36,091 nt of DNA from Chitinophagaceae bacterium (lineage in GTDB: Bacteria; Bacteroidota; Bacteroidia; Chitinophagales; Chitinophagaceae), in the NCBI GenBank assembly GCA_025933775.1, contig JAICZH010000023.1, forward strand, positions 1 to 36,091, read 5' to 3'. A program made the translations under genes and the position numbers. The notes under the pieces were generated by a model. The model was given only the letters and a program-made list of their open reading frames with translations. It was not told the origin of the DNA and searched no databases. The stretch's first letter is position 1; each line of letters opens with the position of its first letter. Below are positions 4,641 to 35,001 of this stretch, in pieces.

Positions 4641-5633
4641 ATGCAAATGAGAAACGATTGGACAAAAGAAGAAATTGCTGAAATATACAACACACCTTTG
4701 TTGGAGCTTATTTATTCTGCGTCTATGCTTCACCGTGAGTATCATGCCACGGGCGAAGTGCAGGTATGCACGTTGCTTTCAATAAAAACCGGCGGCTGTC
4801 CTGAAGATTGCGCTTATTGCCCGCAGGCAGCGCGTTACAATACCGCCGTGGATGTGCAGGCATTAATGAAAAAAGAAGAAGTGCTTGCTTATGCAAAAAA
4901 AGCAAAGGATGCCGGTTCCACAAGATTTTGCATGGGCGCAGCATGGCGCGAAATAAGAGATAATAAAGATTTCGATCGGGTGCTCGACATGGTGAAAGGA
5001 GTGAATGAATTAGGAATGGAAGTATGCTGCACCATGGGAATGCTTACAGAAGAACAGGCCAAAAAATTATATGATGCAGGCTTGTATGCATACAATCATA
5101 ATGTAGATACATCGGAAGAACATTATGCTGATATAATTACAACAAGAACTTATAAAGATCGTTTGAAAACTTTGGCAAATGTTCGCAAAGCAGGTATCAG
5201 TGTTTGCAGTGGTGGCATCATTGGTCTTGGCGAAACTCATGAAGACCGCATTGGAATGTTGCATACATTATCTACTTTGCCGGTTCATCCCGGAAGTGTT
5301 CCGATAAATGCATTGGTGCGTGTAAAAGGAACTCCTTTGCAAGATAATCCTAAAGTAGATATTTGGGATATGATACGAATGATTGCTACTGCACGAATAT
5401 TGATGCCCACGGCAATGGTGCGCCTAAGCGCAGGACGTACAGAAATGAGCATTGCAGAACAAGCATTGTGTTTTATGGCAGGTGCCAATTCTATTTTTTC
5501 AGGAGATAAATTACTCACTACTCCCAATCCTGCATTTGATGAAGATAATGCTATGTTTCAATTATTAGGATTAAAACCAAGAGAAGCTTTTAAAGATGCA
5601 CCTACTGCAGTTGTGAAAGAATTAATTATTTAA
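4641..5633 (+). CDS. bioB: Biotin synthase
   Basis: A 330-residue radical SAM enzyme that inserts sulfur into dethiobiotin, the last step of biotin synthesis, in the cytosol. The radical SAM cluster motif is Cys53-x3-Cys57-x2-Cys60 ([10 protein letters not shown]). The ligands of the second, [2Fe-2S], cluster are also present: Cys97 (RFCMGAAW), Cys129 or Cys130, Cys189 (SVCSGG) and Arg261 (RLSAGR), almost the same numbering as the E. coli enzyme, which supports the start. ATG at 4647 is a possible alternative two codons in. No other biotin genes are nearby, so bioB is a stand-alone gene here. The product is needed by biotin-dependent carboxylases such as the one whose carboxyltransferase subunit lies at 20567-22222. 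Confidence 0.97.
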
Positions 5634-5667
5634 TTGAAACATTTGTGGCTTGCCTTATATGAGAAAT

Positions 5668-6192
5668 TTATTTGACCGATGGAAGATTTTTGTGTGGGAG
5701 ATCAGGCATCAGATAAATTTTGTGTAACGAAATAAATGAACAAATCAATCCAACAAAAATGATAAAGCTTCTAAGCCAATTCATCGGAACCCACTGATGC
5801 AATGCGGTTTTGATGTTTTCCAGATTTGTAGAAATATCAGATTTAAACATGATGTCGTTCCTGGGATAAAAGTAAGCGAACGTAAAAACATCAACCAGAA
5901 CATATAGTAAAAATGCAACAATTAAAAAGATTCTGATGCTGCGCGAAGATTTCCAAAAAAGAATAAGGGACAATAAGGCAAGTGCCTGGTTTATGGGAGA
6001 AAAAACTCTGAAAAAAGTTCCCGGATTTACATTTTGGAAATAATCTCTTGTAGTTTGAATGGATTGGGGAATATTAGCACCCCATGCTGTGGTATCAACA
6101 ATTGAATTGTACATATTTACAAACAAAACTCCAGTGGCAAAAACAATAGAGAAGTAAAGTGCTATAACTTTCAATGAATTGTTTTCTTTCAA
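5668..6192 (-). CDS. Four-TM membrane protein, possibly DUF1772-like
   Basis: A 174-residue membrane protein with four hydrophobic segments: residues about 8-28, 62-80, 83-105 and 138-158. Between TM1 and TM2 lies a polar loop with NMYNSIVDTTAWGANIP and FFRVFSPINQ, and an FYPRND segment follows TM3. The topology, size and the N-rich loop resemble the DUF1772/anthrone-oxygenase-like family, but I cannot confirm that from motifs alone. It is convergent with bioB (34 bp between stops) and transcribed alone. Function unknown. Confidence 0.65.
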   Translation of the reverse strand: MKENNSLKVIALYFSIVFATGVLFVNMYNSIVDTTAWGANIPQSIQTTRDYFQNVNPGTFFRVFSPINQALALLSLILFWKSSRSIRIFLIVAFLLYVLVDVFTFAYFYPRNDIMFKSDISTNLENIKTALHQWVPMNWLRSFIIFVGLICSFISLHKIYLMPDLPHKNLPSVK

Positions 6193-6311
6193 AATGATGT
6201 GGTCTAATAGTTATAAATTTCTGGTAACTTTTCTTTTCACTTTTAGAGGGTAAATGTAAGAAAAAATTTGAATCTTGAATGGTGAATTAAGAATAACCAC
6301 CGAAAGTAATT

Positions 6312-6349
6312 GATTAGCGAATTGGCTAATCAACTAATTAGCTAATTTG
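6312..6349. repeat. GCTAATT-type repeat cluster before the E1 gene
   Basis: Several overlapping copies of the word TTAGC/GCTAA joined by AATT. It includes an inverted repeat GATTAGC-6 nt-GCTAATC (6312-6331). The cluster runs up to within 7 bp of the E1 start codon. Similar clusters occur at 15565-15588 and 18211-18296. Confidence 0.6.
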
Positions 6350-6355
6350 CAATGT

Positions 6356-8419
6356 ATGGACAAAGAAATTCTTTTGCATGCATTTCGTATAATGGTAACC
6401 GTTAGATGCATGGCAGAAACTTATGAAGCCAACCGGCAAATATGCAAATATGTTCATGCTACATCCAGAGGGCATGAAGCTATTCAAATTGCAACTGCAT
6501 TTCAGTTGCTGCCGTGCGATTATGTAAGCCCTTATTATCGCGATGAAAGTTTATTATTAGGATTAGATTTTTCACCATACACTTTAATGTTGCAATTGCT
6601 TGCAAAAGGTGAAGATATTTTTACAGGCGGAAGAGAATATTATATTCATCCCAATTATCGCGGAGAAGATAAACCAACCATTATACATCAAAGCAGTGCA
6701 ACCGGTATGCAGGCTATTCCTTCAACAGGAATTGCACAAGGCTTGCAATATTTGAAATTTATTAACTCATCACTTTATAAAAAAAGCAATGATGGTAAGC
6801 CTCCCATTGTAATTTGTTCTTTGGGCGATGCGAGCTTAACGGAAGGCGAAGTAAGTGAAGCATTTCAGTTTGCTGTTTTAAAAAAACTTCCAATCATTTA
6901 TTTAGTGCAGGATAATGATTGGGGCATCAGTGTAAGCGCCGATGAAGCAAGAACTATGAATGCATCAGAATTTGCATTGGGCTTTAAAGGCATGAAACAC
7001 ATAAGCGTTGATGGCAGTGATTTTTTTCAGAGCTATGAGGTAATGAAAAATGTGGTGAATGATGTGCGTGAAAATTATCAACCATTTTTAGTTCATGCAA
7101 AAGTGCCGTTGCTTGGTCATCATACAAGTGGTGTGCGAAAAGAATTTTATCGTTCACCGGAAGACCTTGCTTTACATGCAGCAAATGATCCTTTACCCAA
7201 ATTAAAAAAACAATTGCTTGAATCAGGTATTGATGAAAATGATTTAAATAAAATTGAATCATTAGTTGAAAAAGAAGTTGTGCAACATTTTGCAAATGCA
7301 GTTGCAGCGGCAGAACCTGATCCATCAAAAGTGGCAGAACATATTTTTGCTCAAACAACAGTTACAGAAGAAACCGGAGAGCGCAGCCCCGAAGGAAATG
7401 AAAAAGTAATAATGGTTGATGCGGCTTTATTTGCCATTCGTGAAATTATGGAACAATATCCTGAAGCGATATTATTTGGGCAAGATGTAGGACGCAGGCT
7501 GGGCGGTGTTTTTAGAGAAGCTGCAACATTAGCAGAACAATTTGGCGATCATCGTGTTTTTAATACAGCTATTCAGGAAGCATATATTATTGGTTCAACT
7601 GTTGGCTTATGTGCAACCGGCGTGAAGCCAATTGTTGAAGTTCAATTCGGGGATTATATTTATCCGGGCATTAATCAATTGATAAGTGAAGTGGCGAAAA
7701 GTTATTACTTAAGTTGTGGTAAGTTTCCTGTACAAACTGTTATTCGCGTTCCCGTGGGCGCTTATGGCGGCGGTGGCCCATATCACAGCGGATGTGTGGA
7801 AACTTTATTGCTTTCGATTAAAGGAATTAAAATTGCCTATCCATCCAACGCTGCCGATATGAAAGGGTTAATGAAAGCCGCTTTCCTCGATCCCAATCCT
7901 GTAATAATGCTTGAACATAAAGGGCTTTACTGGAGTAAGGTACCGGGCACAGAAGATGCAAAATCTATTGAGCCAAACAGCGTATACGCATTACCGTTAG
8001 GAAAGGGAAATATTGTATTAAATGCTGATAAACAAAAAATAAAAAATGGTGAAAGCTGTTGCATCATCACGTATGGAATGGGAGTGTATTGGGCGAAAGC
8101 AGCTGCAAAAAATTTTAATGATCAAATTGAAATCATTGATCTCAGAACATTATTTCCTTTGGATGAAGAACTGGTTTTTTTAACTGTAAAAAAACATGGC
8201 AAATGTTTGGTGCTTACCGAAGAGCAGCAAAACAATTCATTTGCAGAAGCGCTTGCAGCAAGGATTACAAAAGGATGCTTTAAATTTTTGGATGCCCCGG
8301 TTGAGGTGTTGGGCGCTTTAAATTTACCCGCCGTTCCCATGAATATATTTCTTGAAAAAGCCATGTTGCCGAATGCAGAAAAAGTAATTCAGTTAATTAA
8401 TAAATTATTGAATTATTAA
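6356..8419 (+). CDS. 2-oxoacid dehydrogenase E1, fused alpha and beta subunits
   Basis: A 687-residue fusion of the E1 alpha and beta chains of a thiamine-diphosphate 2-oxoacid dehydrogenase, probably the branched-chain (2-oxoisovalerate) type. The alpha half (residues about 1-330) has YYRDE near 60-64 and the ThDP-binding segment GDASLTEGE at 157-165 with the closing Asn near 187 (VQDNDWG). The beta half (from about 350) has FGQDVG, QEAYIIG (Glu for ThDP activation), VEVQFGDYI, GGGGPYHSG and YPSNAADMKGL. Fused E1 of this length is common in Bacteroidota. The E2 and E3 partners are not in the window. I prefer ATG at 6356; a TTG at 6347 in the same frame overlaps the upstream repeat cluster. 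Convergent with the NRAMP-like gene. Confidence 0.92.
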   Translation: MDKEILLHAFRIMVTVRCMAETYEANRQICKYVHATSRGHEAIQIATAFQLLPCDYVSPYYRDESLLLGLDFSPYTLMLQLLAKGEDIFTGGREYYIHPNYRGEDKPTIIHQSSATGMQAIPSTGIAQGLQYLKFINSSLYKKSNDGKPPIVICSLGDASLTEGEVSEAFQFAVLKKLPIIYLVQDNDWGISVSADEARTMNASEFALGFKGMKHISVDGSDFFQSYEVMKNVVNDVRENYQPFLVHAKVPLLGHHTSGVRKEFYRSPEDLALHAANDPLPKLKKQLLESGIDENDLNKIESLVEKEVVQHFANAVAAAEPDPSKVAEHIFAQTTVTEETGERSPEGNEKVIMVDAALFAIREIMEQYPEAILFGQDVGRRLGGVFREAATLAEQFGDHRVFNTAIQEAYIIGSTVGLCATGVKPIVEVQFGDYIYPGINQLISEVAKSYYLSCGKFPVQTVIRVPVGAYGGGGPYHSGCVETLLLSIKGIKIAYPSNAADMKGLMKAAFLDPNPVIMLEHKGLYWSKVPGTEDAKSIEPNSVYALPLGKGNIVLNADKQKIKNGESCCIITYGMGVYWAKAAAKNFNDQIEIIDLRTLFPLDEELVFLTVKKHGKCLVLTEEQQNNSFAEALAARITKGCFKFLDAPVEVLGALNLPAVPMNIFLEKAMLPNAEKVIQLINKLLNY

Positions 8420-8438
8420 ATTATTATTACCAACTCCA

Positions 8439-9740
8439 TTATTTTACCGCCATATAAACCATGGCAATTGCTGCGGTTCCCATTCCTAAAAAAGTGACCC
8501 ATAAAACTATTTTAGAAAGCAATCCGCTTTTATATTCTCCCAGAATTTTTTCATTTCCTGAAATTTTTATTATTAAAAAAATTAGCGGAACAGCAGCCAC
8601 GCCATTTAATACGGCTGCATATACCAAGGCTTTCACTGGATCAATCCCAACAAAATTGATTATTAAACCAATAAGAGTAGCAATAGTAATAATGCCATAA
8701 AATCCATGTGCTTTTTTTAATTTTAAATTTAATCCTGATTGCCAATTTACAGTTTCTGAAACAGCATAAGCTGCCGAACCTGAGAGTACAGGAACTGCTA
8801 AAAATCCCAACCCGATAATCCCGATAGAAAAAATAAGTTTAGATAAATAACCTGCATGAGGAAAAGAACGTACCAATGGTTCGATTGCTTTAGCCGCATC
8901 TGCGGCAGTTTTTATATCGGTTACACCGCTATTGTGCAAGACAGTTCCCCCAACTACCAATATACTCCATGTAGTAATTTCAGAAATAATCATACCTGCG
9001 TTGTTATCAATTCGCATAGCCCGTATATTACTTCGGCGGATAGAAGGCAGGCCATTCTTCATCCATTTTTTTTGTTTTACCTCTTCCACTTCCTGGGATG
9101 TTTCCCAAAAAAACATGTATGGCGAAATGGTAGTTCCCAATACGCCTGTTATGATAAAAAAAAATGCAAAACTAAATTCTACATGAGGAATAAATGTAGC
9201 TTTAAGAACCGTTAGCCATGGCATTTGAACAATAAAAACAGTTATAGGATAAGCAAGCAATGAAAGCGCAAGCCATTTCAATATTTTTGCATATACTTTA
9301 TAGGTTGTAAATATTTCCAGTATTAAAATGCTTGCAGTAAATAATAATGTCCATACTATAAAGGGTAAGGGAATTATTAATTTTGCTGCTTCTGCCATAG
9401 CGCCAATATCTGCACCAATATTTATCACATTTGCAAAAACAACAAGCAATACAACTGCGTAAAGAACTTTTGCATTATAATGTTGTTTTACAATTGCGGC
9501 TATACCTTTACCCGTTACCAGGCCAGTTCTTGCACACGCTTCCTGTATGCCCATCATAAAAGGCAGCATATAAAAAGCAGTCCATAACTGGCCATATCCA
9601 AATTGAGCACCTGTTTGCGAATAAGTAGCAATGCCGGAAGGGTCATCATCTGCAGCTCCGGCAGTAAGTCCGGGACCAAGTATAGATAAAAATTTCTGAA
9701 ATTTATTTCGCTTAGATTTTGATTTTCCCTCCTGATCCAT
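8439..9740 (-). CDS. NRAMP-family metal transporter with altered metal site
   Basis: A 433-residue membrane protein with about eleven TM segments belonging to the NRAMP/SLC11 family. TM1 reads DDDPSGIATYSQTGAQFGYG: the canonical DPGN has become DPSG (residues 33-36), keeping the Asp but losing the Asn. TM6 reads GTTISPYMFFW (202-212) where classical members have a MPHN motif, so the metal-coordinating Met is Ser and the following His-Asn is Tyr-Met. Classical NRAMPs take up Mn2+ or Fe2+ with protons using Asp, Asn and Met; this protein keeps only the Asp. It therefore belongs to a divergent branch, perhaps one handling a harder ion such as Mg2+; substrate is inference. Transcribed alone, divergent from the LOG-family gene. 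Confidence 0.88.
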   Translation of the reverse strand: MDQEGKSKSKRNKFQKFLSILGPGLTAGAADDDPSGIATYSQTGAQFGYGQLWTAFYMLPFMMGIQEACARTGLVTGKGIAAIVKQHYNAKVLYAVVLLVVFANVINIGADIGAMAEAAKLIIPLPFIVWTLLFTASILILEIFTTYKVYAKILKWLALSLLAYPITVFIVQMPWLTVLKATFIPHVEFSFAFFFIITGVLGTTISPYMFFWETSQEVEEVKQKKWMKNGLPSIRRSNIRAMRIDNNAGMIISEITTWSILVVGGTVLHNSGVTDIKTAADAAKAIEPLVRSFPHAGYLSKLIFSIGIIGLGFLAVPVLSGSAAYAVSETVNWQSGLNLKLKKAHGFYGIITIATLIGLIINFVGIDPVKALVYAAVLNGVAAVPLIFLIIKISGNEKILGEYKSGLLSKIVLWVTFLGMGTAAIAMVYMAVK

Positions 9741-9896
9741 TTTATAAATTTGTAAAGGAAGTTACTTAAACCTGAAAATGTAATCGCAATTTATTTTTTC
9801 TGATAACTGATTATAGTGTTATAAATTTTAAAATAAAATCTAAAATATTTGTTTAAAAAAAATCAAATCAATTATGTTTGATAAAAAAGAAAAGCG

Positions 9897-10679
9897 ATGC
9901 CAGCCACAAAAGAAAAAGTAGCGACCATAAAACAAGAAATAAAATTCTTTGAGGGACCTCAAAGCAGGTGGCAGAATTTTAAATATACGGTAAGTGTTTT
10001 TTTTGAATTTATTAAAGGCTTTCGCGCATTGCATTTTGTTGGCCCATGCGTTACTGTGTTTGGTTCTGCACGTTTCAAAGAAGATCATGAATATTATAAA
10101 CAAGCGCGAAAACTTTCTGCCGAAATTGCAAGGCTTGGCTTTACCATTATGACCGGTGGTGGCCCGGGAATTATGGAAGCTGCTAATCGCGGTGCAAAAG
10201 AGGTAGGGGGCAAAAGCGTAGGATGCAATATCGTATTGGCACATGAGCAACACCGCAATCCTTATTTAGACAAATGGGTGGACATTAAATATTTTTTCCT
10301 AAGAAAAACGTTATTGATAAAATATTCGTATGCATTTGTTGTAATGCCAGGTGGTTTCGGCACTTTAGATGAATTTTTTGAAGCGCTTACTTTGGTTCAG
10401 ACACAAAAAATAAGTATGTTTCCTATTATTATCTTTGATAAAGATTTTTATAAAAATATTTTGGAACATAATCAAAAAATGTATGAAGCGGGAACCATTT
10501 CCAAAAACGATGAAAGCCTGTATCTGGTAACCGATTCCATTCCTGAAGCGATCGCATACATCAAAGAAAAAAGCATTCGTGCATTCGGATTAAAATATAT
10601 GCAACCACAAAAAGCTTTCCCGGTTTTTTTTGAAAAAGGAATAAAAAGAATTTCTCAGTCTTTTCACGTACATGAATAA
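9897..10679 (+). CDS. LOG family (TIGR00730-type) Rossmann-fold protein
   Basis: A 260-residue protein of the LOG/lysine-decarboxylase-like family. Motifs: FGSARF at residues 55-60, TGGGPGIMEAAN at 86-97, FLRK at 134-137 and the signature PGGFGTLDE at 151-159. Characterised relatives are nucleoside 5'-monophosphate phosphoribohydrolases (cytokinin-activating type), releasing a base from a nucleotide. The N-terminal 50 residues and the C-terminal tail make it somewhat longer than minimal LOG proteins, as is usual for the Bacteroidota version. ATG at 9897 is the first good start. The SDR gene follows after 110 bp on the same strand; whether they share a transcript is unclear. Confidence 0.9.
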   Translation: MPATKEKVATIKQEIKFFEGPQSRWQNFKYTVSVFFEFIKGFRALHFVGPCVTVFGSARFKEDHEYYKQARKLSAEIARLGFTIMTGGGPGIMEAANRGAKEVGGKSVGCNIVLAHEQHRNPYLDKWVDIKYFFLRKTLLIKYSYAFVVMPGGFGTLDEFFEALTLVQTQKISMFPIIIFDKDFYKNILEHNQKMYEAGTISKNDESLYLVTDSIPEAIAYIKEKSIRAFGLKYMQPQKAFPVFFEKGIKRISQSFHVHE

Positions 10680-27299: not shown

Positions 27300-27456
27300 A
27301 ATAAAAAATTATTCTGCGAAAATACGGGAATGTAAATTTGAAGGGGTTTCCGCTTAAATAAAAATTGGTTGACTGTTTTTAAAGAATAAATGATTGCCAG
27401 CAATTTTTATGAAATCGTAAAAATTATTCAAAAATTTAATAAACAGAAATACCAAT

Positions 27457-27470
27457 ATGATTTCAATCAT
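27457..27470. promoter_or_regulatory. Crp/Fnr-type operator upstream of the porin-nirK run
   Basis: ATGATTTCAATCAT, a palindrome with 6-bp arms and the core TGAT-N4-ATCA. The same 14 bp (reverse complement) occur at 31926-31939 and 32600-32613. It lies 55 bp before the chosen porin start. This is the FNR/DNR-class half-site, so the regulator encoded at 31998-32588 is the probable ligand. Confidence 0.8.
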
Positions 27471-27524
27471 CTTTTATCATTCGTATTCTTTTGAAATTTG
27501 CATCTGATTTTCAATCGGGCCCCT

Positions 27525-28820
27525 GTGCATAATATTATTATAAAATATTTCATAAAAGTCTTCATATCCAGTTTTGCGGGATTTATTGCAAGCATTTTTG
27601 GAATGAATGCAAGCGCCCAGGATGCTTTTAAAATAACAGCGCAATACAGGCTTCGCCCCGAATTCAGGCATGGATATAAAACACTTTACCCAGATACTTC
27701 CGGCGCAGCTTTTTTTATAGCTCAAAGGGCAAGGATAGCATTTGATTATAAAAAAGAAAATCTAAAAGCATATATTTCTATACAGGATGTAAGAACATGG
27801 GGCGATGAAGAACAATTGAAAGATATTCCTGGCTTATCAATAAATGAATTATGGATTGAACTTCTTTTCAAAAATAATTTCTCTCTGAAAATGGGGAGGC
27901 AGGAATTGGTATATGACGACCAACGGTTGCTTGGAAATGCAGACTGGAACAATGCCACACGCTCTCACGATGCGTTGCTTTTGAAGTATGCAAATAAAGA
28001 AAAAAAAATCAACTGGCATATTGGAGGCGCATTCAATCAAAATGGTGAACCACTTTTTGAAACTAACTATACCTTAAATAACTATAAATTTTTGGCATTC
28101 ACCTGGCTGAAAAAAGAGTTCGCAAAAAGCTCAGTTTCTGCAACAGCAATTGCAAACGGGTTAAATTCTGTGGTACCTGTTTCTAAAAAAGTTAAAGCCA
28201 GCTTTACTTTTGGGCCGTTATATAATTATCAGGATAAAAATTTTAAAGCAACATTGGGCACTTATTATCAAACAGACAAAACAGAAAATAATTTACAGCT
28301 CTCGGCGTATATGCTTAATAGTTATATTGAACTGTATAATAAAAATTTATTTGGCGGAGCAGGTTTAGATTATTTATCCGGCAATTCTGATAAAACTCCG
28401 GCGGGGTATAGCCAAAATTTTTCTACCTTATATGCTACCAATCACAAGTTCTACGGATACATGGATTACTTTGTAAATTTTCCAGACGATACAAAACAAC
28501 GCGGTTTAATTGATGCTTATCTTCGTATTGGTGTTACTGCAGTCAAAAATTTTAAGGCCACGCTTGATGTGCATCATTTCTATTTGGCCAATAAAAATAA
28601 TATTGTAGTTAATAAAATACAGAAAAGTTTGGGAACCGAATTTGATTTACTCACAGAATACCAGCCTTCTTCCTTAATAAACTTACAGGCAGGCTATTCC
28701 CTGATGTTTGCAACAAAAAATATGAAATTGATAAAAGGCGGAGGCAGTAACAATTACAACGGATGGGCTTTTATAATGTTTAAGGTATCGCCAACTTTTT
28801 TTAACTATGAATTTAAATAA
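27525..28820 (+). CDS. Outer-membrane porin, alginate-export-like
   Basis: A beta-barrel of about 431 residues resembling alginate-export/AlgE-like porins: ITAQYRLRPEFRHGY at the mature N-terminus, FFIAQRARIAFDYKKENLKA, SINELWIELLFKNNFSLKMG, and RQELVYDDQRLLGNADWNN, followed by repeated amphipathic strands. The start is uncertain: no ATG precedes the signal peptide, so I chose GTG at 27525 (MHNIIIKYFIKVF then FASIFGMNASAQ-like cleavage); TTG at 27498 would add nine residues. First gene after the TGAT-N4-ATCA operator and 13 bp before nirK, so it probably belongs to the nitrite-respiration operon, perhaps letting an anion such as nitrite or nitrate through the outer membrane; that substrate is inference. 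Confidence 0.8.
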   Translation: MHNIIIKYFIKVFISSFAGFIASIFGMNASAQDAFKITAQYRLRPEFRHGYKTLYPDTSGAAFFIAQRARIAFDYKKENLKAYISIQDVRTWGDEEQLKDIPGLSINELWIELLFKNNFSLKMGRQELVYDDQRLLGNADWNNATRSHDALLLKYANKEKKINWHIGGAFNQNGEPLFETNYTLNNYKFLAFTWLKKEFAKSSVSATAIANGLNSVVPVSKKVKASFTFGPLYNYQDKNFKATLGTYYQTDKTENNLQLSAYMLNSYIELYNKNLFGGAGLDYLSGNSDKTPAGYSQNFSTLYATNHKFYGYMDYFVNFPDDTKQRGLIDAYLRIGVTAVKNFKATLDVHHFYLANKNNIVVNKIQKSLGTEFDLLTEYQPSSLINLQAGYSLMFATKNMKLIKGGGSNNYNGWAFIMFKVSPTFFNYEFK

Positions 28821-28833
28821 TAAATAAATAAAC

Positions 28834-29853
28834 ATGAAAACAAAAAGAAACATTTTTATATTATTAGTATTAGCTTTTGGGGCATTTGGCACAAGTTGCA
28901 GCAATAACAACAGTGCTTCTGCTGCAGATGAAAAAGTTACAGGCGAAGAAATAGCAGAACTATCCTATGCACCTATGGTACCAAAACCCATCACCAGAAA
29001 TTATCCTACACATGTGATCGTGAATTTAAATATTGTTGAACGCGTGATGAAGCTTGCAGACAGCACTGACTATATGTTCTGGACTTTTGGGGGGGATGTT
29101 CCAGGCCAGTTCATTCGAGTAAGAGAAGGTGATGAAGTGGAAATAAACTTGTATAATTTACCTCAGAATAAATTGTCGCATAGTATTGACCTGCATGCTG
29201 TAAGCGGCCCGGGTGGCGGCGCAGAGGCTTCTAACGTTGCGCCTGGCCACACTTCTACTTTTCACTTTAAAGCATTAAACCCCGGCCTATACGTTTATCA
29301 TTGTGCAACTGCTCCTGTGCCCATGCATATTGCCAATGGCATGTACGGCTTAATTTATGTTCAGCCTAAAGAAGAGCTGCCCGAAGTAGATAGAGAATAC
29401 TATTTAATGCAGGGTGAATTTTATACTAAACAAAATTTCGGAGCTAAAGGCCTGCAGGAATTTGATGAGCAAAAAGGAATTAATGAACAGCCAACTTATG
29501 TGGTATTTAATGGTAGTGTAAATGCCAATACGGGCAAAAATGCATTACCCGCAAAAGTTGGTGAAACAGTAAGATTATATGTTGGGAATGGAGGCCCAAA
29601 TCTTGTTTCTTCTTTTCATGTTATTGGTGAAATATTCGACAAAGTTTATGTAGAAGGAGGCGAAATGGTAAACCGCAATTTCGGTACAACCCTTATCCCA
29701 TCGGGTGGTGCAGCAATCGTAGAAATGAAAATAGATATTCCCGGCATTTACAATATTGTTGACCATTCTATCTTCCGCACATTTAACAAAGGATGCCTTG
29801 CGCAAATAAAAGCAACAGGCGGAAGAGATACTTTAATCTTTAGAAAAAATTAA
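28834..29853 (+). CDS. nirK: Copper-containing nitrite reductase
   Basis: A 339-residue NirK, reducing nitrite to nitric oxide in the periplasm. All copper and catalytic residues can be placed: type 1 copper His116, Cys157, His165 and Met170 ([25 protein letters not shown]); type 2 copper His121, His156 and His311 (VDHSIF); active-site Asp119 and His262 (SSFHVIGE). Two cupredoxin domains, first about 50-180, second 190-330. The signal sequence ends in a lipobox-like FGTSC (Cys22) followed by a short Ser/Asn/Ala linker, so it is likely a membrane-anchored lipoprotein. No fused cytochrome or cupredoxin domain. It is flanked by porin (13 bp) and nirV-like gene (30 bp), and controlled through the operator at 27457. 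Confidence 0.95.
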
Positions 29854-29883
29854 CTTAATAAAGCATTTCTTTTTATAAGAAGA

Positions 29884-30681
29884 ATGAAATCAATTTTTGT
29901 AATATTATTTTTTATTAGTTGCCTTTCATGTGAAAGCCAGCCTAAAATAAATATTACTGCAGAAAAGAAAATGGTAAAGGTAAACGGCGGTAAGTTTAAA
30001 ACTTTTTATGTTTCAAAAACTGATAAGCCATTAATTGTAGCGCCATTTTTAATGGATGAATGTGCGGTAACCAATGCAGAATTTCTTGAATTTGTAAAAG
30101 CAAATCCTGCATGGAGCAGATCAAAAGTAAAAAGGATTTTTGCAGATTCTAATTATTTAAAACAATGGAAAAGTGATTTTGAAATTGGAGAATCAAATAA
30201 AAATATTTACAATTCGCCGGTTGTAAATGTATCATGGTTTGCTGCAAATGCTTATTGCAACTGGAAAAATAAACGGCTTCCAACCCTTGCTGAGTGGGAG
30301 ATTGCGGGCAATGCACCTCCTGAAAATATACCTTACACTTCCGTAACAGATTACATAATGAAATGGTATGAGAAGCCATCTTTGCCTGTATTGCCCAATG
30401 TAAAGAGTACTTATTGCAACACTTATGGATTATACGATATGCATGGATTGATATGGGAATGGACATTTGACTTTAATAGTTTTATAAGTACCGGTGATTC
30501 CAGGAATACAACTAACGATAACAATAATTTATTTTGCGCAGGAGCATCCATTAATGTAACCAACCGCGATGATTATGCAGCTTTTTTACGCTATGGTTTT
30601 CGTGGAAGCCTGAGAGGAAGTTATTGCATTTCAAGTCTTGGATTTCGTTGCGTTAAGGATTTATCATCAAACAAATTTTAA
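29884..30681 (+). CDS. nirV: NirV-like SUMF1/FGE-domain lipoprotein
   Basis: A 265-residue lipoprotein (SCLSC, Cys16) with an FGE-sulfatase/SUMF1 (C-type-lectin-like) domain: MVKVNGGKFKTFYVS, FLMDECAVTNAEFLEFVKAN, SPVVNVSWFAANAYCNWKN, RLPTLAEWEIAG, NTYGLYDMHGLIWEWTFDF and the end RGSLRGSYCISSLGFRCVKD. These are the standard order of SUMF1-family motifs. Genes of this kind directly downstream of nirK are called nirV; their biochemical role is unproven. The RGGSW and paired redox Cys pattern of true formylglycine-generating enzymes is not preserved, so sulfatase activation is unlikely. It is in the nirK operon, 30 bp after nirK and 10 bp before the SCO gene. Confidence 0.85.
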   Translation: MKSIFVILFFISCLSCESQPKINITAEKKMVKVNGGKFKTFYVSKTDKPLIVAPFLMDECAVTNAEFLEFVKANPAWSRSKVKRIFADSNYLKQWKSDFEIGESNKNIYNSPVVNVSWFAANAYCNWKNKRLPTLAEWEIAGNAPPENIPYTSVTDYIMKWYEKPSLPVLPNVKSTYCNTYGLYDMHGLIWEWTFDFNSFISTGDSRNTTNDNNNLFCAGASINVTNRDDYAAFLRYGFRGSLRGSYCISSLGFRCVKDLSSNKF

Positions 30682-30691
30682 AATAATTAAC

Positions 30692-31315
30692 ATGAAAAAA
30701 TACATCTCTCTTTCTTTAATTACAGCCCTTTTATTTAGCTGCAATGGAAATGTTGCTGTTGTAAATAATAATGCAGGCACAGATAACGCTGCAAAAAAAT
30801 CTGTCACAAAAAATAATAATACTGCTGCTGCTGCAGAAAGTATTTTTATAGTAACCGATACGTTTCAAACGCAAAATAAAAAAGAGATGATTTTATCTTC
30901 TCTTGCCGGCAAGCCAAGCGTTGTTGGAATGATTTTTACTAACTGCAGCTATGCGTGCCCGAAGATAACGGCGCAAATGAAAAACATTGCCGGTAAATTA
31001 AAAGCTGATGGCAAGGATGCTAATTTTGTGCTGGTGAGTTTTGATACAAAAAGAGATAATGCCGCTCAACTTAAAATGTTTGCGGGTATGATGAACATTG
31101 ATGATAGCTGGATACTTTTGCATGGCAGCGAGCAAGCTGTAAGAACGTTGTCAGTATTGCTGAATGTACAATTTGAAAAAGATGCAGAAGGTAATTTTTC
31201 GCACAGTAATATTATTTCTGTACTCGATAAAAACGGCGTGCTTGCATTTCAAAAAGAAGGATTGGATGCTGATCAAAAAGAAACCGTTGATAAAATTGAA
31301 GAACTAATAAAATAA
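30692..31315 (+). CDS. SCO1/SenC-type copper chaperone lipoprotein
   Basis: A 207-residue lipoprotein; ATG at 30692 is chosen because it starts the signal peptide MKKYISLSLITALLFSC (Cys17); the open frame upstream overlaps nirV. The thioredoxin-like SCO fold is recognisable with the copper ligands Cys85-x3-Cys89 (FTNCSYACPK) and His171 (NFSHSNIIS). SCO proteins deliver copper to cupric enzymes in the periplasm, classically CuA of cytochrome oxidase; here the position as fourth gene of the porin-nirK-nirV run suggests it loads NirK. The Ala/Asn/Thr-rich linker (about 20-50) allows reach from the membrane. It is convergent with the cytochrome gene. Confidence 0.92.
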   Translation: MKKYISLSLITALLFSCNGNVAVVNNNAGTDNAAKKSVTKNNNTAAAAESIFIVTDTFQTQNKKEMILSSLAGKPSVVGMIFTNCSYACPKITAQMKNIAGKLKADGKDANFVLVSFDTKRDNAAQLKMFAGMMNIDDSWILLHGSEQAVRTLSVLLNVQFEKDAEGNFSHSNIISVLDKNGVLAFQKEGLDADQKETVDKIEELIK

Positions 31316-31336
31316 AAGAGAGCTTCTTAAATTTTG

Positions 31337-31355
31337 TCCTTCTCCTTTGGAAGGA
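31337..31355. terminator. Hairpin between SCO and cytochrome genes
   Basis: TCCTTC (31337-31342) pairs with GAAGGA (31350-31355) around a 7-nt loop, in the space between convergent genes. It may terminate one or both transcripts, though T runs are weak. The wording (CCTTCTCCTTTGGA...GGATGA) resembles a frequent Bacteroidota intergenic repeat, from memory. Confidence 0.45.
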
Positions 31356-31368
31356 TTGGATGAAGTTA

Positions 31369-31872
31369 TTATTTTACTCCATCATTTTTTCTCATAAATT
31401 CCAGCAAATCGCGGGCGTTTTTATCTGAAAGATTTTGATTGGGCATGCGCACCAAACAAATTTGAAGATTGGCTTGTGCCCTGGGATCTTTTTCCAGCAT
31501 CTCATCTGTATTGGTAATAAAGTTCATTATCCATTCTGGCTTATATCTTTTTGTAACTCCCAGCCATCCGGGGCCAACTAATTTTTCATCTGTTAGTTTA
31601 TGACATCCGGAGCATTTTACATTGTATATTTTTTCACCGCCATTTGCAAGATTTTCATCCAGTTTTTTCGCAATATCTACATGAGTAAACTTGCCGGCTC
31701 CCCGGTTAGGATCATACTTTGCTGCATCATTACCGCCGGGGTTTGGTAATTTTTCATCGCCTTCGTCAGGGTCCTGAACCACTGAGCCTGAAGTAGCAGA
31801 TTTATTTTGATTGCCATTGTTACAAGCATACATCATTACCGATAACAGTCCTATCATCATAAATTTTTTCAT
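31369..31872 (-). CDS. c-type cytochrome lipoprotein
   Basis: A 167-residue lipoprotein (lipobox MYAC, Cys17) with an Asp/Gly/Pro-rich linker and a single class I cytochrome c domain: heme motif Cys87-x2-Cys90-His91 (CSGCH), GPGWLGV at 100-106, and the axial Met143 in VRMPNQNLSD. It should carry one heme on the periplasmic face of a membrane. Its start is 53 bp from the TGAT-N4-ATCA palindrome that it shares with the divergent regulator gene, so it is expected to be co-regulated with nirK. The likely role is electron donor to NirK (inference from location and redox type). Confidence 0.92.
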   Translation of the reverse strand: MKKFMMIGLLSVMMYACNNGNQNKSATSGSVVQDPDEGDEKLPNPGGNDAAKYDPNRGAGKFTHVDIAKKLDENLANGGEKIYNVKCSGCHKLTDEKLVGPGWLGVTKRYKPEWIMNFITNTDEMLEKDPRAQANLQICLVRMPNQNLSDKNARDLLEFMRKNDGVK

Positions 31873-31925
31873 AAAACAAAATTAATATTTATGTACAAGA
31901 ATACAGGTATGCGTGCAGAATAATT

Positions 31926-31939
31926 ATGATTGAAATCAT
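31926..31939. promoter_or_regulatory. Crp/Fnr-type operator between cytochrome c and regulator
   Basis: ATGATTGAAATCAT, identical (inverted) to the copy at 27457 and in the same orientation as 32600. Here the symmetry extends to 10-bp arms on each side (31922-31943). It lies 58 bp before the regulator's ATG and 53 bp before the cytochrome's ATG, so one site can serve both genes and allow autoregulation. Confidence 0.82.
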
Positions 31940-31997
31940 AATTGTAGTTTTTGTAACTTACTTTTTAAAATCATAATTGATTTTTTGGAGATAAAAT

Positions 31998-32588
31998 ATG
32001 ATAGAAGAAAAATTCTTGTTAGAAAAAGGAGCCACCTTAAGAAAGTATAAAAAAGATCAAAGTATTTTTTACGAAGGTGATAAGTCCATGTATTATTTTC
32101 AAATTGTGGAAGGCAGCATAAAAATGGTAAGTGTAAACGACACTGGTAAAGAATTTATACAAGGCATATTCAAAGCCGGAGATTCGTTCGGAGAACCGGT
32201 TTTGTTAATTGATGAACCTTACCCTGCTACTGCTGTTGCTAATGAAGATTCATTGATTATAAAATTAGATAAAATTGTGTTTTTAAATATTCTTAAAGAA
32301 AATCCAGTCATTCATTTTCAATTCTCGAAGGTGCTTGCAAAAAGAATTTATCACAAATCACTAATCGCAAAAGAAATATCAACTTATGGACCTGAGCATA
32401 GGATATTTTCTGTTTTAAAAATTTTTAAAAAGAATTATAATTTAAACGGCGAAGCTTATAAAGTTGAATTGTCGCGCCAGCAAATTGCAGATATGACAGG
32501 GCTTCGTGTAGAAACAGTTATCAGGAATATTAAAAAATTGCAGCAAAAAAAATTGATTAACATACAAAAGGGTAAAATATATATGTAG
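31998..32588 (+). CDS. Crp/Fnr-family transcriptional regulator (DNR/NNR-like)
   Basis: A 196-residue regulator. Residues about 12-110 form the cyclic-nucleotide-like sensor barrel (FYEGDKSMYYFQIVEGSIKM, GIFKAGDSFGEPVLL), then the dimer helix (about 103-125) and a Crp-type winged helix with RQQIADMTGLRVETVIRNIKKL (160-181). Glu172 and Arg176 in the recognition helix match the Glu and Arg with which FNR reads the TGA half-site. The protein has no cysteine at all, so it cannot carry FNR's [4Fe-4S] cluster; a heme/NO-sensing DNR type is more likely, though no heme ligand can be assigned. The sensor lacks an obvious Arg-Ser cAMP pocket. Its own promoter region carries the palindrome at 31926. Confidence 0.9.
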   Translation: MIEEKFLLEKGATLRKYKKDQSIFYEGDKSMYYFQIVEGSIKMVSVNDTGKEFIQGIFKAGDSFGEPVLLIDEPYPATAVANEDSLIIKLDKIVFLNILKENPVIHFQFSKVLAKRIYHKSLIAKEISTYGPEHRIFSVLKIFKKNYNLNGEAYKVELSRQQIADMTGLRVETVIRNIKKLQQKKLINIQKGKIYM

Positions 32589-32599
32589 CCATATTCTTT

Positions 32600-32613
32600 A
32601 TGATTGAAATCAT
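32600..32613. promoter_or_regulatory. Crp/Fnr-type operator before the cupin-12TM pair
   Basis: ATGATTGAAATCAT, identical to the copy at 31926-31939. It lies 11 bp after the regulator's stop and 45 bp before the cupin ATG, so the cupin-12TM genes have their own regulated promoter and are not merely read through from the regulator. Confidence 0.82.
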
Positions 32614-32658
32614 GTTAGCCGTGCTGATTTTTGTTTTACTTTCCAAAAATTAAAATTA

Positions 32659-32955
32659 ATGATTATAAAAGATGTTCTTGATCAGCTTGAAACAGCAAAC
32701 CATCCTGTAGCTAAGCCACTTCATAAAGGAAATAATTTTAAAGTGATAATTATGGGTTTCAAAAGCGGGATGAAATTAAAAGAACATACTGCGTCTATGC
32801 CATCCAAACTTACCGTTATATCAGGCAAAGTAATTTACAATCAGCAGGGAATAGCAACAGAATTGCAACAGTACGATGAAATTGAAATACCTGTAAACAT
32901 CATTCATACTGTTGATGCAAAAGAAGACAGCTTATGTTTACTTACTCAAGGATAA
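32659..32955 (+). CDS. Small cupin-domain protein
   Basis: A 98-residue single-domain cupin. The first motif reads GMKLKEHTASMPSKLTVISGKVIY (split here as GMKLKEHTAS then LTVISGKV) with His43, and the second DEIEIPVNIIHTVDAKEDS with His83; the usual second His and Glu of motif 1 are missing, so metal binding would be incomplete. No signal peptide, so cytosolic. Small cupins near NO and nitrite genes may sense or scavenge reactive nitrogen, but no activity can be claimed. It follows the operator at 32600 and is 12 bp upstream of the 12-TM gene, so these two form an operon. Confidence 0.8.
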   Translation: MIIKDVLDQLETANHPVAKPLHKGNNFKVIIMGFKSGMKLKEHTASMPSKLTVISGKVIYNQQGIATELQQYDEIEIPVNIIHTVDAKEDSLCLLTQG

Positions 32956-32967
32956 AAGGATTTGCAA

Positions 32968-34206
32968 ATGCCTTCACCTGAAAATAATATTACTGCGCAA
33001 AAATGGATGCGCATTGCAGTAATTAATTTATTAATTGTAGCATTGCTTGGTGTTATAATGCGCTATAAAATTGCTTACTCGCTTCCTTTTATTGAGCAGG
33101 AAAATTTTCTGCATGCTCACTCTCATTTTGCTTTTTCAGGCTGGATAGCACAAGCATTGATGACGCTAATGATTGCTTATCTGGGAAGGCATTCAAAAGA
33201 AAATATTTTTAAAAAATATAAGTGGCTGTTGCTGGCAAATTTAATTTCAGCTTATGGTATGTTGCTGTCATTTCCCTGGGAAGGGTATGGTATTATTTCC
33301 ATTATTTTTTCAACCGTGTCAATTTTTATTTCTTATGTATTCGCTTTTATTTTTTGGAAGGATTTAAATAAACTGCAATTAAAAAGAGTAAGCCATTATT
33401 GGTTTAAAGCAGCGTTAGTTTTTAATATTCTTTCCTCCTTCGGCGCATTTTTTCTTTCTTACATGATCGCTAATAATATCTCTCATCCTAACCGGTATCT
33501 TGCCTCAACGTATTATTTTTTACACTTTCAATATAACGGTTGGTTTTTCTTTGGCTGCATGGGTTTACTAAGTGAGCATCTTTATAATTCGGGGATTTCT
33601 TTTCTGATCCAAAGAAAAGTTTTCTGGCTTTTTGCAGCCGCTTGTATTCCTGCCTATTTTTTATCAGCATTATGGCTTCCCATTCCTTTATGGATTTATA
33701 TAATTGTAGTGATTGCTGCGCTTGCACAATTATTGGGTTGGTTAATTTTACTAAAACAAATGATTACTGAAAAATCAATTCTCTTTAAAGACATTAATGT
33801 TCAAACCCGATGGATATTAATTTTATCAGGTATTGCATTATCAATAAAATTATTATTACAGGCTGCCTCAACTATTCCTTCTTTAAGCAAGTATGCATTC
33901 GGTTTCAGGCCGGTGGTTATTGGTTATTTACACTTAGTTTTATTGGGAGTAATTACGTTATTTATTATTGCATATTCAAAAATGAAAAATTTAATTTATA
34001 CAAACCGCACAGGAAATGCAGGTATTATAATTTTTATTGTGGGTATTATTTTAAATGAACTTTTTTTATTAATTCAAGGTTCTTCTTATATGATTTTTAT
34101 TCCGGTTCCATATATTAATCAATTATTGCTGGCAGCAGCTATATGCCTTTTTTTGGGATTAGTGATGTTGATTTCAGGATTAAGAAAAAAAATTTTTCTT
34201 ACTTAA
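32968..34206 (+). CDS. 12-TM protein resembling heme-copper oxidase subunit I
   Basis: A 412-residue polytopic protein with about twelve TM helices. ATG at 32968 is preferred over the in-frame TTG at 32962. Conserved-looking intramembrane histidines are in TM2 (ENFLHAHSHFAFSGW, His49, His51, His53), a middle helix (YYFLHFQYNGWFFFG, His186) and a late helix (VIGYLHLVLLG, His322). The TM2 and middle-helix wording recalls heme-copper oxidase/NorB subunit I, but the paired His of TM7 and the HxH of TM10 are not recognisable, so it is at best a divergent relative lacking a normal binuclear centre. NnrS-type motifs are also absent. It shares a TGAT-N4-ATCA operator with the nirK genes, so a role in NO or heme handling is a fair guess. 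Confidence 0.7.
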   Translation: MPSPENNITAQKWMRIAVINLLIVALLGVIMRYKIAYSLPFIEQENFLHAHSHFAFSGWIAQALMTLMIAYLGRHSKENIFKKYKWLLLANLISAYGMLLSFPWEGYGIISIIFSTVSIFISYVFAFIFWKDLNKLQLKRVSHYWFKAALVFNILSSFGAFFLSYMIANNISHPNRYLASTYYFLHFQYNGWFFFGCMGLLSEHLYNSGISFLIQRKVFWLFAAACIPAYFLSALWLPIPLWIYIIVVIAALAQLLGWLILLKQMITEKSILFKDINVQTRWILILSGIALSIKLLLQAASTIPSLSKYAFGFRPVVIGYLHLVLLGVITLFIIAYSKMKNLIYTNRTGNAGIIIFIVGIILNELFLLIQGSSYMIFIPVPYINQLLLAAAICLFLGLVMLISGLRKKIFLT

Positions 34207-34257: not shown

Positions 34258-34612
34258 ATGAAAAAAGATATTGCTACCAGACAAGATATTAATTTGCTAA
34301 TGCATAGTTTTTTATACAAAACTTTTAGATGATAGCACTATCAATTACATTTTCACTGATGTAGTAAAGATCGATATAGAAACGCATATACCGGTAATTG
34401 TTGATGTTTGGGAAATCATTTTATTCTACAGAAATGTTTACCAAAATAACCCAATGAAAATTCATCTTGACCTACAAATAAAACACCTTTATTAAAACAT
34501 CACTTCGATGTGTGGCTCAGTTTTTTAGTGCTACGGTTGAGAGTTATATGAATGCAAGATTGCCACTATGGCAAAGCAAAAAGCATTATCCATTGCTACG
34601 GTTATCACATGA
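34258..34612 (+). pseudogene. Group III truncated hemoglobin, shattered pseudogene
   Basis: Reading across frames recovers a group III truncated hemoglobin: MKKDIATRQDINLLMHSF (frame from 34258), then after a one-base shift at about 34321 LDDSTINYIFTDVVKIDIE and THIPVIVDVWEIILFY, NPMKIHLDL, a stop at 34493-34495, then HHFDVWL, FSATVESYMNA and KIATMAKQKALSIATV in three further frames. Typical features are the FTDV helix, the distal and proximal segments (HIPVIVDVWE, HLDL) and the HHFDVWL helix. Four frameshifts and an internal stop make it certainly non-functional. Such globins detoxify NO or bind O2 in many bacteria. It lies 51 bp after the 12-TM gene in the same direction, so it was probably the last gene of that operon. 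Confidence 0.88.
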
Positions 34613-35001
34613 AAATTGCACAACAAATTGCTCATAAGCATACATTTTTATATATTCAATTAATAATTACATCGAACATTATTGTAAAAAAACCAATAAT
34701 ATTCGTTTGCTCATTAAGCAGCAATTGCACATAATTAAACAACTCTCAAATTTTTTTAGAAAGTTCAATCTTGAAGTTAACTTTAGAATGTAAAACATTG
34801 AAAACTTCACAGTACCAAACCTTACATTCGTAAAATTGTCTTCAAGCTTTGAGATTTGTGCTTTTGAATGCAAAATAATTTTCCCAATTGATCCTGCGTC
34901 AAATTGGGAGGAAGCCTAAAAATAACTTTCAATGAAACCACTGGTACAATTCCTCCACTAAGTATTTATCCCAATAACTTAATTTCGATAAAAATTTATT
35001 A
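34613..35001. other. Gene-poor spacer before gamma-glutamyltransferase
   Basis: Between the globin relic and the GGT gene the only recognisable content is the HigA-like relic (34746-34914). Within it CCCAATT (34883-34889) and AATTGGG (34902-34908) could pair as a weak hairpin. No promoter consensus was identified for the GGT gene. Confidence 0.5.
34746..34914 (-). pseudogene. XRE-family (HigA-like) antitoxin, decayed
   Basis: On the minus strand three frames together give LPPNLTQDQLGKL, then QKAQISKLEDNFTNVRFGT and finally HSKVNFKIELSKKI with a stop at 34746-34748. This matches the helix-turn-helix and C-terminal strand region of HigA-type antitoxins in Bacteroidota (LTQEQLG...vqKaQISKLE...fgtv.kvf.al.akvnf.iel). 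At least two frameshifts separate the pieces and the N-terminal third is not seen, so it is a relic. No toxin partner (HigB/RelE) remains recognisable on either side. Confidence 0.7.

Follow-up and report, generated by a model that had tools for sequence, protein, structure and literature searches.

A putative DNR-like regulon beside nirK in a Chitinophagaceae bacterium, with a distinct operator and promoter spacing

Crp/Fnr regulators that govern denitrification or nitrosative-stress genes are the closest described counterparts of the system considered here, a Crp/Fnr gene and three identical palindromes in the neighbourhood of the copper nitrite reductase gene nirK, within a 36,091-nucleotide stretch of a Chitinophagaceae genome (contig JAICZH010000023.1 of assembly GCA_025933775.1; this whole stretch is hereafter the window). 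In the excerpts of PMC1274295, PMC12750200 and PMC6264515 drawn on here, the DNR regulon of Pseudomonas and beta-proteobacteria has at its centre a Crp/Fnr protein without the FNR-type cysteine motif, which controls nir, nor and nos genes and whose box, TTGATnnnnATCAA, keeps an N4 spacer between TGAT and ATCA (PMC1274295); the NnrR regulon of alpha-proteobacteria likewise has an FNR-like activator of denitrification genes, with the consensus ctTTGcgnnnncgCAAag (PMC1274295). Within Bacteroidota, HcpR2 (found in Bacteroides and others) is a Crp/Fnr protein of nitrosative-stress genes, again without the FNR-type cysteine motif, with hcp as main target and the motif GTAACnnnnGTTAC (PMC1274295, PMC12750200); nitric oxide (NO) acts through haem in Porphyromonas gingivalis HcpR, and an HcpR-regulated dnrN is named for Bacteroides fragilis (PMC12750200, PMC1274295). 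An NnrR-like Crp/Fnr gene also lies on one CFB-assigned clade II nosZ scaffold, for which the excerpt gives gene neighbourhood only and no operator, spacing or regulon; the figure legend names genes for c-type cytochromes and for transmembrane proteins, which are not assigned here to a particular scaffold (PMC6264515).

The window resembles these systems in having a Crp/Fnr protein and departs from them in operator and promoter. We consider it probable that its regulator, which contains no cysteine, is a class II activator with NO as the most likely signal, and that it binds three operators in the window and drives three local promoters. The system is most likely a DNR-like regulon of Bacteroidota whose main association is with nosZ, and in this genome with nirK, and which has an operator and promoter geometry of its own: its 18-base consensus, TTATGAY-N4-RTCATAA, matches neither the DNR box TTGAT-N4-ATCAA nor the NnrR box TTGcg-N4-cgCAA, and it is paired with a Bacteroidota promoter whose -7 element reads TAnnYTTG. 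Within the open-licence PMC literature searched, in part as excerpts, we found no description of this operator or of a nos-linked Crp/Fnr regulon in Bacteroidota.

The original prediction had described three identical 14-bp palindromes. Exact copies of ATGATTGAAATCAT indeed lie at 27457-27470 (-), 31926-31939 (+) and 32600-32613 (+), their arms ATGATT and AATCAT pairing completely around two unpaired central bases, and the impression gained by eye that the window holds no further copy stands at 0 or 1 mismatch, a single extra place (21327) having 2 mismatches. The proposed scan of the genome, run on the whole assembly (3,253,249 bases, 3.25 Mb; 197 contigs; 98.19% complete), found the arms without mismatch (ATGATTNNAATCAT, ATGATT-NN-AATCAT) three times, all inside 5.2 kb of the locus, whereas places with up to two mismatches to the 14-bp motif are common (870), as are, at 20, those of the looser ATGAT-N4-ATCAT. 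Because near matches are so frequent, it is the clustering and not the bare count that stands out. Exact 14-mer copies per genome range from 0 to 8 across 195 family genomes, and these counts were set aside as uninformative.

What makes the palindrome ATGATT-NN-AATCAT very likely a real operator is that a de novo scan beside the regulator gene in 60 loci of relatives recovers the same element. These family loci (L196-L255) were fetched from the 68 best regulator matches outside the genome itself (E 1.2e-32 or better) and represent, by manual count, 40 genera; the genomes searched, 195 for the regulator and 394 for nirK, are both samples of Chitinophagaceae. At 1e-20 a regulator match was present in 106 of the 195, the weaker of these matches probably being other Crp paralogs. 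A second set comprised 80 named loci (L046-L125), many from Flavobacteriaceae, which overlap in part with the family genomes (L046/L197 and L049/L198 are identical in the tree). The scan took in every 4-base palindrome with spacers of 0 to 12 in the gaps flanking the regulator gene, up to 400 bases on each side. At the top in the family loci were TATG-N8-CATA (46 loci), ATGA-N6-TCAT (41) and TGAT-N4-ATCA (37), which are registers of one element; mononucleotide shuffles gave TGAT-N4-ATCA in a mean of 0.5 loci (maximum 3), and TGAT with other spacers occurred in 0 to 8. The named loci put the same element on top (ATGA-N6-TCAT in 59, TATG-N8-CATA in 55, TGAT-N4-ATCA in 27). With two mismatches or fewer, the 18-mer was found in 75 of 119 family gaps (3.8 shuffled, 3 reversed) and in 62 of 139 gaps of the named loci (6.1 shuffled, 3 reversed). 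Its core is FNR-like (TGAT-N4-ATCA), but the half-site core starts with A, as it does at 74 of the 81 sites in family loci, where the FNR/DNR box has T (PMC1274295). An asymmetric variant, TTATGCG-N4-ATCATAA, also recurs upstream of the regulator gene (crp) in the family loci.

The element stands at a fixed distance from a promoter motif. Counting from the end of the 18-mer to the start of YTTG, we found YTTG at offset 24 in 24 of the 31 family sites that point to the gene following crp, usually that of a 12TM membrane protein, and in 40 of the 59 that point away from crp, toward cytochrome c if that gene is there; other offsets average 0.24 and 0.37, respectively, and on the wrong side none of the 31 sites had YTTG at offset 24. 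In the named loci 18 of 32 sites facing away from crp have this offset. An exact TAnnTTTG proved too strict as a -7 element, with 6, 2 and 3 matches in three sets; the conserved form is YTTG at fixed offset. In the Flavobacterium johnsoniae -7 element, TANNTTTG, TTTG occupies -8 to -5 in the part of the source drawn on (PMC6847099). Taken together with offset 24, this places the operator centre at -41.5. CRP and FNR occupy this place when they act as class II activators, and the geometry thus agrees with that mode.

Reading offset 24 in the window gives TTTG for porin-nirK, CTTG for cytochrome c, TTTC for the cupin-like gene and TAAA toward the regulator, with TGAA on the divergent side of operator 1; the predicted leaders would be about 20 (porin), 19 (cytochrome c) and 11 (cupin-like) bases. 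A composite search for an operator with up to three mismatches and a -7-like element at the right spacing, its pattern widened to [CT]TT[GC] to include the TTTC of the third site, returned only the three window sites, against 0.14 expected in shuffles; two further composite sites show 4 and 5 mismatches. We read 47 operator-like sites in the parts of the genome that were fetched; the combination of an intergenic position, a -7-like element and a gene start within 250 bases was confined to these three. The 47 include 14 of the 17 other ATGAT-N4-ATCAT sites, the remaining 3 exceeding three mismatches; some of the loci read are about 3 kb long, where genes past the edge could be missed, as may apply to L361 and to one L362 site, both close to an edge. 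In L362 an intergenic site has TTTC at the offset, with no gene start before the locus ends.

The regulator itself has, by sequence, a Crp/Fnr fold, with a cNMP-type domain and a Crp helix-turn-helix; its likeness to the solved DNR (3dkw) is remote (5.4e-8). None of its 196 residues is a cysteine, which rules out oxygen sensing through an FNR-type [4Fe-4S] cluster. Within the recognition helix, GLRVETVIR, residues E172, T173, I175 and R176 are invariant in all 141 aligned regulators, and V171 is found in 137. Glu172 and Arg176 thus sit where the original prediction had put them, as the residues that read TGA in FNR; we take their CRP equivalents to be E181 and R185, and since CRP has both as well, the two alone do not show FNR-type reading, the telling features being Val171 and the core base A. 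Of CRP positions 180, 181 and 185, treated in the excerpt of PMC1274295, it is Arg180 that goes with G3 of the site; the window protein, aligned by eye from the helix motif, has Val171 there, and the lack of Arg fits the absence of G3 from its operator. Position 181 sets the group apart from HcpR2, most of which have Pro (some Ser or Gln) where all 141 window-type regulators have Glu (PMC1274295, PMC12750200, in part).

Gene company in relatives suggests that, in the Chitinophagaceae examined, this regulator most often controls nitrous oxide reductase (nos) modules and NO defence (nosZ, cytochrome c, 12TM, RIC and globin). Within 9 kb of crp, 53 of the 60 family loci hold a 12TM gene; the corresponding counts are 44 for nosZ, 43 for cytochrome c and 36 for a truncated globin. 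The gene of the Fe-S repair protein RIC (ScdA) is part of the locus in 26. In the usual order, whose gene families were checked in L211 and L239, one side holds an ABC ATPase, nosD, nosL, nosZ and cytochrome c, and the opposite side the regulator and 12TM, in some loci joined by RIC. RIC stands directly behind 12TM in 19 loci; in 11 of these the stretch between the two holds a further operator core and a -7-like element spaced 23 to 25 from it. By sequence, operators precede RIC, nirK and the cytochrome c gene that adjoins nosZ. Within 9 kb of crp, 37 of the 80 named loci have a 95-residue membrane protein and 52 a group III truncated globin, identified by its match to 2ig3 (2.1e-10); Pfam and NCBIfam searches gave it no match. 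NosZ, RIC and globins handle nitrous or nitric oxide, and because of this NO is the likeliest inducing signal. DNR and HcpR sense NO by way of haem.

The tree is limited to the window regulator and its relatives; from the named loci it took every third one together with L061 and L115, and a coverage filter removed some. It places the window regulator in a fork of 8 rows (100/98), and the other 7 rows, from 5 different loci, all have nosZ. The label 'NirK regulon' in the original prediction stands in so far as the sites are confined to the locus as far as seen, and is too narrow as a definition, the usual neighbours in relatives being nosZ, cytochrome c and 12TM. In the same tree, the regulator on a contig filed as Candidatus Kuenenia (Planctomycetota; L112) lies very near that of Fluviicola (Bacteroidota; L106); the contig is possibly misbinned.

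nirK itself is less often found with this regulator. Matches at 1e-50 are present in 41 of the 394 family genomes, the source genome included; of 42 matches 40 were fetched (L156-L195), most of them lying away from the regulator, and 38 gave cassettes, 2 having no nirK frame in the simple open-reading-frame caller behind our scripted gene calls. TGA-N6-TCA with YTTG at offset 24 occurs in 8 of the 38 (other offsets 0 to 3, except offset 46), and the bare core TGAY-N4-RTCA in 20 (other spacers 0 to 4). A locus from the same genus (L191 of G246, 4875-10135) holds the regulator module too, joined by a porin and by a NirK unlike that of the window (TIGR02376, 444.3 bits): there nirK occupies the place behind cytochrome c where relatives have nosZ, with an operator of one mismatch in front. 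Its regulator belongs to a different fork of 43 rows (100/99), in which 33 rows come from loci with nosZ, and we infer that nirK has been coupled to this regulator type at least twice.

Several observations weigh against the model of a local activator. Operator 1 differs from the 18-base consensus at 3 positions, and neither operator 1 nor operator 3 has a -7 element that fully matches TAnnTTTG. In the named loci the spacing of operator and -7 element is less strict than in the family loci, offset 25 occurring in 14 and offset 24 in 9 of the 36 sites toward the downstream gene. The link to nirK is weak in relatives: only 3 of the 8 cassettes with the correct spacing come within three mismatches of the 18-mer, the other five having 4 or 5; L158/L159 and L194/L195 resemble sister genomes; and some nirK-bearing genomes have no close match to the window regulator, so that other Crp/Fnr paralogs may use similar boxes. 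The choice of NO as signal draws on gene company. nirK promoters also show a second spacing peak, with YTTG at offset 46 in 7 of the 38, 22 bases beyond offset 24.

Such paralogs underlie the rival that survives best, though we judge it improbable: the three sites would be operators of another FNR- or DNR-like Crp/Fnr protein encoded elsewhere in the genome, and the local regulator would have other targets. TGA-N6-TCA cores are common to Crp/Fnr proteins, and beside four nirK cassettes (L157, L173, L174 and L178) stands another Crp protein (27 to 31% identity), three of the cassettes being preceded by boxes with three mismatches or fewer to the 18-mer. Against this, the element recurs beside the regulator's own gene, at fixed spacing, in most of the 60 family loci and in the named loci, and exact copies in the source genome lie only around that gene. 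The local protein, which the original prediction had cast in this part, is the best candidate to bind the three sites.

Operator 2 bears on a second, still less probable alternative, in which the regulator is a repressor or autoregulates through a shared site. The operator lies in a divergent gap, its centre about 65 bases upstream of the crp start, and among the 59 upstream sites of relatives there are 7 with YTTG at offset 24 toward crp; in L196 and L198, read by eye, a second site in the gap has the -7 spacing in that direction. In the window, however, TAAA stands at offset 24 on the crp side, and -41.5 is where a class II activator sits. Autoregulation, part of the original prediction, is thus unsupported here, because only on the cytochrome c side does a -7 element stand at the conserved distance from operator 2. 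That the three 14-mers are a functionless chance cluster or a recent duplication is very improbable, even in an AT-rich genome where near matches are common, given that the element is conserved in relatives and that the flanks, compared by eye without alignment, share little beyond operator and -7 position.

From the computed sites, spacing, conservation and gene linkage, then, we infer binding of the protein, activation and the signal: induced by NO, a regulator dimer would bind TTATGAY-N4-RTCATAA centred at -41.5 and activate, in class II fashion, the promoters of porin-nirK-nirV-SCO, cytochrome c and cupin-12TM. In this lineage nosZ would have gone missing and the globin would be decaying, with the nirK cassette placed under the same operator.

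The genes concerned (Table 1) run in the order porin, nirK, nirV and SCO, then cytochrome c on the opposite strand, then the regulator, cupin-like and 12TM genes. TIGR02376 and Pfam matches bear out the earlier assignments of porin, nirK, nirV, SCO, cytochrome c and Crp. NirK aligns with solved nitrite reductases (2zoo, 7.8e-133), and the cytochrome c resembles that adjoining nosZ in relatives. The porin probably starts at the GTG codon given, chosen by eye from a signal-peptide-like sequence; the listed open frame begins at 27498.

Table 1. Operators, promoter elements and genes of the locus, in window coordinates.
Feature	Position	Strand	Remarks
Operator 1, ATATGATTTCAATCATCT	27455..27472	+	exact 14-mer on - strand; faces porin-nirK
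-7-like element GAAATTTG	27493..27500	+	TTTG at offset 24-27; predicted transcription start 27505
Porin (Alginate_exp family)	27525..28820	+	PF13372, 6.4e-15
nirK, copper nitrite reductase	28834..29853	+	TIGR02376, 347.3 bits (passes cut-off of 296.3)
nirV (FGE-sulfatase fold)	29884..30681	+	PF03781, 4.8e-33
SCO1/SenC-type protein	30692..31315	+	PF02630, 5.8e-17
Cytochrome c	31369..31872	-	PF00034, 3.3e-8
-7 element TATTCTTG, cytochrome c promoter	31896..31903	-	CTTG at offset 24; predicted start 31891
Operator 2, TTATGATTGAAATCATAA	31924..31941		full consensus; spaced for cytochrome c promoter
Crp/Fnr regulator, 196 residues	31998..32588	+	PF00027, 8.8e-20; PF13545, 4.6e-9; PF00325, 5.1e-7
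Operator 3, TTATGATTGAAATCATGT	32598..32615	+	faces cupin-12TM
-7-like element TTACTTTC	32636..32643	+	TTTC at offset 24; predicted start 32648
Cupin-like protein, 98 residues	32659..32955	+	name from the original prediction, kept by eye
12TM membrane protein	32962..34206	+	conserved family without a name
Decayed group III truncated haemoglobin gene	34307..34636	+	several in-frame stops; family identity via 2ig3, 2.1e-10

Neither member of the pair called cupin-12TM in the original prediction, the 98-residue protein or the 12TM protein of the window, matches a Pfam or NCBIfam model at 0.01. 12TM is a conserved family, with H53, H55, H188 and H324 in all 68 aligned sequences. PF00115 gave no match to the window 12TM protein and, in 2 of 17 relatives, scores of 19.4 and 16.4 bits, below the cut-off of 34.8. 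Profile comparison (hhalign) of the 68 sequences with three COX1 groups and nine single sequences reached a probability of at most 5.7% (reversed control up to 1.4%), and a PDB search with the 12TM profile returned one chance-level match (E 0.44). An identity as a NorB/CcoN-type oxidase was therefore rejected on these sub-threshold scores and the non-significant comparison, and is kept as a lead.

Several of the expected partners were missing when the genome was searched. The only NosZ match was the cupredoxin end of NirK, ScdA/RIC and the Pfam globin model gave none, and the single COX1-family protein groups with long aa3-type oxidases (our label), with no NorB-like match for an NO reductase. 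The one truncated globin is a broken copy directly downstream of 12TM, with four stops in the matched stretch. With the assembly 98% complete in 197 contigs, any single absence could be an assembly gap. The source organism is possibly a partial denitrifier that releases NO.

More speculatively, and with the balance of our judgement against it as a whole, the regulators may form a widespread Bacteroidota family of NO-responsive class II activators, with the 18-base operator at -41.5, that serves as the dedicated switch of clade II nosZ, and 12TM, often its partner and with four invariant histidines, may be an unrecognised haem protein handling NO or electrons in nitrous oxide or nitrite respiration. 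If so, 12TM would be a candidate for handling NO in the source genome, where the searches brought up nirK and neither NO reductase, NosZ, RIC nor an intact globin. Clade II nosZ in Bacteroidota is regarded as an important nitrous oxide sink. Regulation in environmentally relevant nitrous oxide reducers is described as little documented, especially outside Proteobacteria (PMC6264515, in part). The recurrence of one regulator type, an 18-base operator and a fixed geometry in most of 60 loci from 40 genera makes regulon prediction possible, and the same kind of regulator and site beside nosZ in most relatives examined offer a testable model of how nosZ may be switched on. The window, for its part, illustrates a way in which a regulator of this type could act in nitrite reduction where nosZ is absent.

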